Of a DNA stretch of 25,465 nucleotides, positions 7,410 to 9,004 are shown piece by piece (positions within the stretch are counted from its first letter, which is position 1; every line of letters starts with the position of its first letter). Source of the DNA: a virus; the IMG/VR virus record IMGVR_UViG_3300021960_000465, positions 1-25,465 of that record. One strand, written 5' to 3'. The notes under the pieces were generated by a model. The model was not told the origin of the DNA. It saw only the letters and a program-made list of their open reading frames with translations, and did not search any database. A program made the position numbers and the translations under genes.

Positions 7410-7595
7410 ATACGAAAAATATACAAATGTAGAACAGTTTCAAGTGTAAATGTTTCTATGAATTAGGGCCTTAGGGTAAATATAAAAAAATAGGGCTAAG
7501 AAATGGTCCCCCCAGGTATCCAGTTCCTGCTCATCTGGTCGGGCTAGGGTACCTTAAATCATTTTAACCAGAGCCCAGAGCTTCAGCTCAAGGGT

Positions 7596-7612
7596 GGGGG
7601 TGCAGCTCCCCC
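7596..7612. repeat. Hairpin with G5/C5 stem
   Basis: Five G bases and five C bases flank a 7-base centre (TGCAGCT). Bases 7601-7617 share a 16-base core with the palindrome region at 7755-7770, apart from one inserted A. No U-run follows on either strand, so it is not a classical terminator. Confidence 0.6.
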
Positions 7613-7716
7613 AGACCGAGAAAATCGTTTGGGGGTCTTGTCGTAGTTTGCATGATGCTCGCTCCTGGTCACACTAAACGAGGCAGCTCTGGGAATTCGC
7701 CAGGTGTTTTTTTCCT

Positions 7717-7735
7717 GATGCGAAGCACCAGGGCA
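7717..7735. repeat. Eight-bp hairpin, not a standard terminator
   Basis: Read on the minus strand, CCTGGTGC and GCATCAGG pair around TTC, with one G-U pair. It is followed there by a run of A, and on the plus strand it is preceded by a run of T, so neither orientation gives a hairpin followed by U. It may be a binding site or a DNA secondary-structure element. Confidence 0.5.
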
Positions 7736-7747
7736 CAAATTGCGACA

Positions 7748-7765
7748 GGGGAGCTGCAGCTCCCC
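7748..7765. repeat. Perfect 18-bp palindrome
   Basis: GGGGAGCTGCAGCTCCCC reads the same on both strands with no spacer. It stands out in an AT-rich genome. It lies 14 bases past the stop of the gene ending at 7779. A dimeric DNA-binding protein or a cut or packaging site are possible readings. Confidence 0.8.
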
Positions 7766-7778
7766 CGACCAGATTAAT

Positions 7779-8039: not shown

Positions 8040-8268
8040 CGATGTTCTCACCCATCTCGGTCATGAGCTCACGATACTCGGAGCTATCACCAAAGATCTC
8101 TGGGCGATATTGTGAACGCAAAGTATCTTCGCACTTATCACAACACCAACCACAAGAGATACCCATGGAGTCGGTTAATTCATACCTTGGATAATCCTCA
8201 GGGGATTTACAAGGCTTCTCATCATTGAAAGCCATACGGCATTCATCAGGTTGTCTAAAATCAAACAT
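8026..8268 (-). CDS. Hypothetical Cys-rich protein (80 aa)
   Basis: This 80-residue protein contains a compact cysteine cluster, CGWCCDKCED (about 39-48), and two further cysteines near the N-terminus (DECRMAF, KPCKSPED). That could bind one zinc ion. The C-terminus is acidic. It follows the DUF3846-like gene by 2 bases and overlaps the next gene. I do not recognise a named family; small zinc-ribbon-like proteins of this kind are common in phage early regions. Confidence 0.65.
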   Translation of the reverse strand: MFDFRQPDECRMAFNDEKPCKSPEDYPRYELTDSMGISCGWCCDKCEDTLRSQYRPEIFGDSSEYRELMTEMGENIDDEY

Positions 8269-8270
8269 GA

Positions 8271-8579
8271 CTAATGCTTCAAAGTATTCTTAACAGGATT
8301 AAGAACATCCTGAGGTTGCAACTTGTCGAATTGTTTTTTAGTCTGGACTACTACGACATCACCTACCAGAGGCTCTCCCGCAATAACAGATGCTAAAATA
8401 TTCATCGGCAATTTAAGAGCTAGTCCATCTTCATTGACTGCGAGCTCTCCTGAAATTTGTTTAGGATGTCTAACAAAGGCGACATATCCACCAACAAGTT
8501 TACGAATATCCTCAAAGCTAGTCTCAGGAGCTAGGCTCTCGAAACTGCCATTGGATTTTATTAACGTATAATGTTTCAT
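8271..8579 (-). CDS. DUF3846-like protein (102 aa)
   Basis: The pattern ELAVNEDGLALKLPMNILAS followed by GEPLVGDVVVV (about 45-80) matches the DUF3846 family, phage and plasmid proteins with the N-E-D/E-G-L, P-x-N-x-x-A and GDVVVV signatures. The function of that family is unknown. The ribosome site AAGGAG lies 9 bases before the ATG. The gene is immediately downstream of the structured RNA region at 8621-8916, so it is the likely target if that region acts in cis. Confidence 0.75.
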   Translation of the reverse strand: MKHYTLIKSNGSFESLAPETSFEDIRKLVGGYVAFVRHPKQISGELAVNEDGLALKLPMNILASVIAGEPLVGDVVVVQTKKQFDKLQPQDVLNPVKNTLKH

Positions 8580-8620
8580 AATTAATTTCTCCTTATCCTA
8601 AATTTATATTTTTTTATTTA

Positions 8621-8648
8621 GAAAGTCTAGTAGCCCGAAGGCTACCAG
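8621..8648 (-). terminator. UUCG-capped hairpin, possible terminator or attenuator
   Basis: In minus-strand RNA, CUGGUAGCC and GGCUACUAG form nine pairs (one G-U) around a UUCG tetraloop closed by C-G, an exceptionally stable cap (bases 8627-8648). The bases that follow are ACUUUCUAAAU, a weak U-run, so termination may be partial. It lies 48 bases before the DUF3846-like start codon, and could end the RNA made from 8916 or attenuate the downstream gene. Confidence 0.55.
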
Positions 8649-8653
8649 TAATC

Positions 8654-8680
8654 TAGGTCAATAATTATTATCATAACCTA
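8654..8680 (-). repeat. Seven-bp RNA hairpin between ncRNA domain and UUCG hairpin
   Basis: UAGGUUA and UGACCUA pair with one U-G wobble; inside, AUAA and UUAU can continue the stem around a UAA loop after a 2-base bulge. The wobble pairs only on the minus-strand RNA, in line with the direction of transcription. Confidence 0.5.
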
Positions 8681-8697
8681 TCCCCTTTCTTGAAATC

Positions 8698-8916
8698 TAG
8701 GAGAACTTAAGAGCATTCGTGGGATTTGAACTTATTACCCACAACTTTCGGTAGAACAGATGGTTTCTCATCTACTTGAACCTACTCCTCAAGACCTCAG
8801 ACATTTGTCCATACTTCTTGAGCCCTGTACCTTACGACTCTGTTTTAAAATCGTTATTCAGTCAGAATGCCTCAAAGTAGCTTGCAATCTATTTTGTTTT
8901 AAGTTCTCCTATATTT
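8698..8916 (-). ncRNA. Candidate structured RNA closed by a 13-bp stem
   Basis: Bases 8899-8911 and 8698-8710 are perfect complements (13 bp) enclosing about 190 bases. Just inside, 8865-8873 pairs with 8711-8718 (8 pairs, one bulge). Within that junction lie four hairpins: 8834-8854 (6 bp), 8788-8822 (7 bp, CUCAAGA with UCUUGAG), 8750-8782 (about 11 pairs with wobbles) and 8719-8742 (GUGGG with CCCAC). A predicted promoter would start the RNA at about 8916. This is what a compact multi-branched RNA looks like. I could not match it to tRNA, tmRNA, RNase P or group I intron signatures. It may be a free RNA or a leader of the DUF3846-like gene. Confidence 0.65.
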
Positions 8917-8922
8917 CTAATT

Positions 8923-8952
8923 ACTATATCGAGCCAATCTCGAAAAATTCAA
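8923..8952 (-). promoter_or_regulatory. Promoter with inverted-repeat operator, upstream of structured RNA
   Basis: On the minus strand TTGAAT (8952-8947) is followed after 18 bases by TATAGT (8928-8923). The spacer contains TCGAG-N5-CTCGA (8943-8929), a perfect inverted repeat placed where a repressor would block polymerase. Transcription from here would start at about 8916, five bases before the 13-bp stem. The hexamers match the sigma-70 consensus at 4 of 6 and 5 of 6 positions. Confidence 0.5.
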
Positions 8953-9004
8953 CTTTTTTTTTCAAAAAAATTAAAAATAGTTTCATATAAAGTTTATGGG
9001 TAGT

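Follow-up and report, generated by a model that had tools for sequence, protein, structure and literature searches.

The manA RNA (Rfam RF01745), which is mostly marine and occurs in cyanophages, has been rated cis-regulatory and a probable riboswitch (Weinberg et al. 2010, PMC2864571), and its regulatory role was still described as unverified in a 2023 cyanophage paper (PMC9964418). The manA RNAs of the T4-like cyanophages S-SSM7, S-SSM4, P-TIM40, and S-CREM1 are phage-borne and have a core in common with the RNA described here; the three that were examined adjoin a tRNA or sit in operons, and a unit of promoter, micro-ORF, and terminator was not seen in them. Phage T4 makes two stable RNAs of unknown function, C and D, from its tRNA operon, which we cite as an analogy only. 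In leader-peptide attenuators, such as the tna and erm leaders, a Shine-Dalgarno sequence precedes a short ORF that stops beside an RNA hairpin.

Here, we analyzed a marine phage stretch of 25,465 nucleotides (the window; positions 1 to 25,465 of IMG/VR record IMGVR_UViG_3300021960_000465) that encodes a structured RNA on its minus strand. A sequence-only reading had described this RNA as compact, promoter-led, and unlike known families, and had proposed either an independent phage small RNA or a leader for the neighboring DUF3846-like gene. Scanning IMG/VR for the pattern TGACTGAATAA-N-GTAAGGT gave 89 stretches, comprising many whole elements and some chance matches (inside coding sequence, without a closing stem, and without a match to model R1), which were excluded; since pattern scans demand exact matches, divergent members are undercounted. 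L numbers (e.g., L026, L115) denote individual loci, and the contigs are metagenomic. Model R1 was built from the close relatives of the window, an intermediate clade, L067, and L102, with Rfam-passing manA excluded.

Fold of the window RNA and its relation to manA

The segment 8916-8621 (minus strand) folds with a minimum free energy of -86.6 kcal/mol (z -4.36), and none of 200 shuffles was as low. The perfect 13-bp stem between 8899-8911 and 8698-8710 is present where it had been placed, its arms reaching 19 nt at 95% complementarity, and the view that such a match is improbable by chance holds: 13 bp was reached in 0 of 200 dinucleotide shuffles (maximum 11) and in 0 of 167 other 296-nt tiles of the window (maximum 12). 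The inverted repeat is conserved in relatives, where the stem covaries (Table 1). A second helix does lie inside it, with 7 bp and not the 8 originally counted, and the junction hairpins are where they had been noted, although five inner hairpins were resolved instead of four, namely P1a, P3, P4 with its inner helix, P5 (weakly), and P6.

Table 1. Features of the window RNA, its transcription unit, and the neighboring gene.
Feature	Positions	Strand	Evidence
Predicted sigma-70-like promoter TTGAAT-N18-TATAGT, predicted start ~8916-8917	8923..8952	-	Scan and conservation
manA-like RNA including outer stem	8693..8916	-	Fold z -4.36; RF01745 28.0 bits, full length; covariation
P1 5' strand (13-bp stem and 4 further bp outside it), partner 8693-8710	8899..8916	-	17 sequences: 97.6% of cells paired, two-sided change in 9/17 pairs
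P1a, 5' hairpin with UUGCAA-type loop (5' hairpin of manA)	8873..8896	-	Two-sided change in 4/7 pairs, 17 sequences
P2 5' strand, core closing stem immediately 5' of UGACUGAAUAAC	8865..8871	-	Two-sided changes in 7/7 pairs, 54 sequences
Conserved single-stranded UGACUGAAUAAC	8853..8864	-	Invariant in alignment A1; present in Rfam manA consensus
P3 hairpin	8834..8854	-	97.2% paired over 6 modelled pairs, two-sided changes in 6/6, 54 sequences
Conserved GUAAGGUA	8828..8835	-	Alignment of relatives; Rfam manA match
P4 stem with inner UGGAC/GUCUG hairpin (motif AUGGnCAAAUGnCUGAGG)	8788..8822	-	100% paired; two-sided change in 4/6 and 1/5 pairs, 17 sequences
P6, 3' hairpin GUGGGUAAUAAGUUCAAAUCCCAC (T-arm-like)	8719..8742	-	100% paired, two-sided change in 4/5 pairs, 54 sequences
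P2 3' strand	8712..8718	-	54-sequence covariation
P1 3' strand	8693..8710	-	Complementarity and covariation
Shine-Dalgarno AAAGGGG (AAAGGAGG in most relatives)	8682..8688	-	Comparison of units
Micro-ORF MIIIIDLDYW, start codon within a small hairpin	8642..8674	-	16 units; pN/pS
UUCG hairpin, 9 bp, over the last codons of the micro-ORF (TGG TAG)	8627..8648	-	Fold; most relatives have a terminator with T-run
Downstream DUF3846 gene	8271..8579	-	PF12957 33.5 bits, cut-off 27.5; not conserved with the unit

Covariation supports this fold at three depths. Among ten close-relative sequences, two-sided changes occur in 23 of 80 pairs, against 9.2 for shuffled sequences, and the signal collapses in slid controls. 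Across 17 relatives, 98.2% of cells pair, with two-sided changes in 26 of 55 pairs. In the wider clan, 54 homologues with E < 0.001 (the majority of those scanned being below the Rfam cut-off) gave 94.9% paired cells versus 67.1% in shuffles and a score of 0.631 versus 0.182, in an alignment that was fitted to the model and so leans towards it. As judged from these alignments, the 13-bp P1 is a clade-specific outer stem, while the conserved manA core consists of P2 and the part that it encloses.

The claim that the RNA matches no known family is correct only at the Rfam gathering cut-off, where we found zero matches. With permissive filters, a search of 8560-8990 returned manA as the best match (28.0 bits, E 2e-5, model positions 1-192), and the matched RNA contains UGACUGAAUAA, GUAAGGU, and the 3' hairpin GUGGGUA...AAUCCCAC. 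The likeness extends to order and spacing. UGACUGAAUAA and GUAAGGU flank the P3 hairpin as in manA, P1a corresponds to the hairpin that manA has just 5' of its closing stem, and the closing stem and adjacent 3' hairpin GGGUA...AAUCCC covary in the 54 sequences, which include Rfam-passing manA. Intermediates were also scored by the Rfam model, L032 with 42.2 bits (E 2.6e-9) and another with 33.6 bits. Conversely, R1 recovers the Rfam-passing manA loci L050, L019, L012, L076, L004, and L065, with E-values from 1e-8 to 4e-5 that are rough owing to a shortened calibration. Because the Rfam model finds the window RNA and the intermediates, and R1 finds Rfam-passing manA, homology is supported in both directions.

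The window RNA also differs from manA. The score falls short of the gathering score of RF01745 (55.2 bits), therefore the RNA is a homologous relative but no member by the cut of Rfam itself. In the multi-helix middle region of the Rfam consensus, the alignment skips blocks and has many non-standard pairs; the window type has its own P4 and P5 there, including the AUGGnCAAAUGnCUGAGG hairpin. It also has the extra outer stem. It does not occupy the 5' UTR of a metabolic gene, the position that goes with the cis-regulatory annotation of manA, but has its own predicted promoter and a micro-ORF, with DUF3846 as neighbor and convergent genes in relatives. On comparative grounds, the window RNA is thus a divergent, previously unrecognized manA homologue, yet outside the Rfam cut-off.

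The hairpin carrying UUCAAAUCCC, which had been likened to a tRNA T-arm within an RNA that is otherwise no tRNA, is the conserved manA 3' hairpin. This resemblance is what speaks for a tRNA-, tmRNA-, or intron-like RNA, a reading that we regard as virtually out of the question: other members show no T-loop likeness in that hairpin, and manA is the sole noteworthy Rfam match. A tRNA or tmRNA origin was rejected, as ARAGORN called none and no Rfam tRNA or tmRNA match was obtained.

A self-contained unit with a conserved micro-ORF

The window and 15 close relatives have the same order of parts, that is, a predicted sigma-70-like promoter, the manA-like RNA with its outer stem, a Shine-Dalgarno sequence, a micro-ORF, and a hairpin over its stop codon (window, L016, L026, L029, L030, L037, L039, L060, L061, L090, L114-L117, L121, and L122). 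The promoter-like site is found where the sequence-only reading had put it; the site alone is not rare, as a scan of the region found 2 sites against 1.4 expected by chance, but both boxes are invariant or nearly so in relatives, with TTGAATTTTT and CGATAT unchanged in 10 of them and present once more in L115-L117.

The micro-ORF, which was not part of the earlier description, lies 3' of P1 at all 16 loci, spans 8-10 codons, and ends in TGG TAG. Its typical peptide is MLIIVLDPW, with MFIVLDPW, MIVIVIDDW, MLIIVLDYW, and MLIIVFDDW as variants besides that of the window. Over codons 2-8, pN/pS is 0.29 in frame versus 0.79 and 1.72 in the other frames, for a small sample, 12 distinct sequences of 9 codons, which RNA hairpins constrain in part as well; by this measure, the micro-ORF is under protein-level constraint. 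The stop codon lies within a hairpin (GGTAGCC..GGCTACC) in 16 of 16 units, followed by a T-run in most relatives. In the window, the UUCG-capped 9-bp hairpin is real as described; it has no clear T-run, and no terminator was called there.

Two explanations place the function in this part of the unit. The first holds that the nonapeptide is the functional product and the RNA mainly a leader that stabilizes it or controls its expression. The conserved M-hydrophobic-V-L-D-x-W pattern, the low in-frame pN/pS, and the strong Shine-Dalgarno sequence are in its favor. However, L111 keeps the RNA and lacks the micro-ORF, and the peptide is absent from all wider manA-like RNAs examined, the RNA core being far more widely conserved, so that we consider this explanation improbable. 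The second is an attenuator, in which translation of the micro-ORF would govern the hairpin over the stop codon and hence read-through to the next gene. Like leader-peptide attenuators, the unit has a short ORF behind a Shine-Dalgarno sequence, and this ORF ends at a hairpin; the invariant position of that stop codon, a start codon in a small hairpin, and a constrained peptide would all suit this mechanism. Unlike those attenuators, it has no conserved downstream target gene, and read-through in L115-L117 would meet no co-directional gene. In addition, since only ~30 nt separate the start codon from the hairpin, RNA polymerase would probably be past the hairpin before a ribosome arrives. An attenuator therefore has, in our estimate, as small a probability as a nonapeptide leader.

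The downstream genes bear on the second proposal of the sequence-only reading. While the neighbor is indeed DUF3846-like (Table 1), the genes 3' of the unit in relatives are small, mutually unrelated ORFs, and the next gene is convergent in L115, L116, and L117. As relatives retain the unit beside different or convergent genes, its role as a leader regulating DUF3846 is not supported, and this candidate was ruled out. The unit is independent of any particular downstream gene. The first proposal, an independent phage small RNA, fared better, with the conserved promoter, the terminators in relatives, the convergent genes in three of them, and the covariation all in its support.

Genomic contexts of the wider manA-like clan

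Many manA-like loci lie ~17-35 nt upstream of assorted ORFs preceded by a Shine-Dalgarno sequence. This position, together with the cis-regulatory, candidate-riboswitch status that manA has in Rfam and in Weinberg et al. 2010 (PMC2864571), is consistent with a cis-acting leader, in which the manA-like fold would sense a metabolite and control translation of the next ORF, either the micro-ORF or a real gene. The Shine-Dalgarno sequence was also modelled as more paired when the 5' strand of P1 is left out, but for most sequences this signal is within shuffled controls, and pairing of the P1 3' strand with the Shine-Dalgarno sequence is not conserved in L115 and L117. The genes downstream are mutually unrelated, convergent in L115-L117, and absent in tRNA clusters. 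Moreover, the evidence for cis-regulation from an ORF-upstream position is weak because compact phage genomes would put any inserted RNA there. We therefore consider a cis-acting leader or riboswitch unlikely, though less so than the attenuator or the nonapeptide.

Three other contexts are hard to square with a leader of the next gene. In L076, an Rfam-passing manA (8280-8478) sits flush between two tRNAs (8207-8278 and 8480-8551) with a permuted tmRNA alongside; the Rfam-passing manA of L065 is likewise flush between tRNAs, and the element of S-SSM7 ends 2 nt before tRNA-Gly. An intrinsic terminator immediately follows the manA-like RNA in L018, L034, and L020. In the pelagiphage 023Pt_psg01, which is related to the phage of the window by its terminase (65% identity), the manA-like RNA and the genes on either side of it run in opposite directions. 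Elsewhere, manA-like RNAs also occur within arrays of other putative structured RNAs of 80-97 nt that begin with AAGTTT. These contexts suggest that manA-type RNAs are stand-alone phage RNAs and not switches of one neighboring gene.

The AAGTTT arrays (L032 3300-4300; L011 2450-3350; and around the manA-like RNA in L003, L044, L047, L053, L057, L066, and L084) consist of different putative RNAs in tandem, which combine with the manA-like cassette in a mosaic fashion. One array RNA, GAGGATG...GTAGCTTGATCTCTAC...CATCCTC, is found in 6 contigs and shows compensatory changes in L011; some array RNAs fold better than shuffles, others do not, and Rfam matches none of them. Several further observations concern single contigs. 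The tmRNA of the phage contig L076 (7904-8231), in the tRNA array adjoining manA, is of the permuted cyanobacterial type. In L107 (2556-2687; S-SSM7 151441-151572), the ORF annotated as hypothetical protein SSSM7_180 coincides almost completely with the manA RNA, and its call is probably spurious. The closing stem GGAAGG/CCTTCC of the manA-like RNA in L125 (4451-4630, minus strand) is followed almost immediately by a T-run, so that the stem itself resembles an intrinsic terminator. A Type II hammerhead ribozyme (40 bits) is present in L067 (5296-5358, minus strand), whose contig also has a manA-like RNA. In the window itself, 7490-7770 (minus strand) is GC-rich and noncoding, in a phage that is otherwise AT-rich. 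This stretch contains GGGGGAGCTGCA twice, forms a long domain of paired bases (minimum free energy -101.7, z -1.79), and ends in a T-run; it may be a second structured RNA, and it had no match in phages or IMG/VR.

Searching a phage collection by blastn with the window element, L026, L003, and L117 gave no useful match, and the isolate relatives HTVC027P and HTVC023P gave no significant one. A search for a cellular origin, run with strict filters on 289 genomes from the class that includes Tabrizicola, gave no match. The sole match in a metagenome-assembled genome, labelled WOR-3 (L102), is on a contig whose ORFs resemble phage structural genes by eye. A literature search, with most subscription journals outside its coverage, found no paper on the manA-type contexts seen here.

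A probable stand-alone phage RNA and its meaning for manA

The explanation that we favor, and consider probable from the comparative evidence, is that the locus makes a stand-alone, structured phage RNA containing its own micro-ORF, a self-contained unit of ~300 nt that would act in trans. A host-type promoter would drive a folded, manA-homologous RNA whose last part carries the Shine-Dalgarno sequence and the micro-ORF of 8-10 codons, with the stop codon in a terminator-like hairpin. The RNA would accumulate as a stable, stand-alone species. Within the infected cell, its conserved unpaired core, UGACUGAAUAAC and GUAAGGUA, may mediate an action in trans, with a host protein or the translation machinery as the most plausible binding partner. 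Translation of the micro-ORF would take place on the finished transcript, and its outcome would be a functional nonapeptide or else a regulated stop of the ribosome; in tRNA clusters, tRNA-processing enzymes presumably excise the manA-like RNA. Against the stand-alone explanation, the position 17-35 nt upstream of ORFs also fits a 5'-UTR element, the window hairpin has no T-run, and the window RNA is under the Rfam gathering threshold.

On a wider view, manA-type RNAs may be a broad, phage-borne clan of stand-alone, trans-acting RNAs that move as cassettes, whether as self-contained units, between tRNAs, or next to further unknown structured RNAs in tandem arrays. The window type would then be dual-function in that it also encodes a conserved nonapeptide. 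If the clan is stand-alone and the window type dual-function, the label of cis-regulatory riboswitch candidate would therefore be wrong for the clan; we put this forward tentatively, with somewhat less than even confidence. The 54 homologues supply the covariation needed for an improved manA model, and the short, conserved micro-ORF lends itself to testing. Since 2010, manA has had the status of an orphan riboswitch candidate, and the tRNA-flush, opposite-strand, and promoter-to-terminator contexts shift the question from which metabolite it senses to which partner a stable phage RNA would bind.
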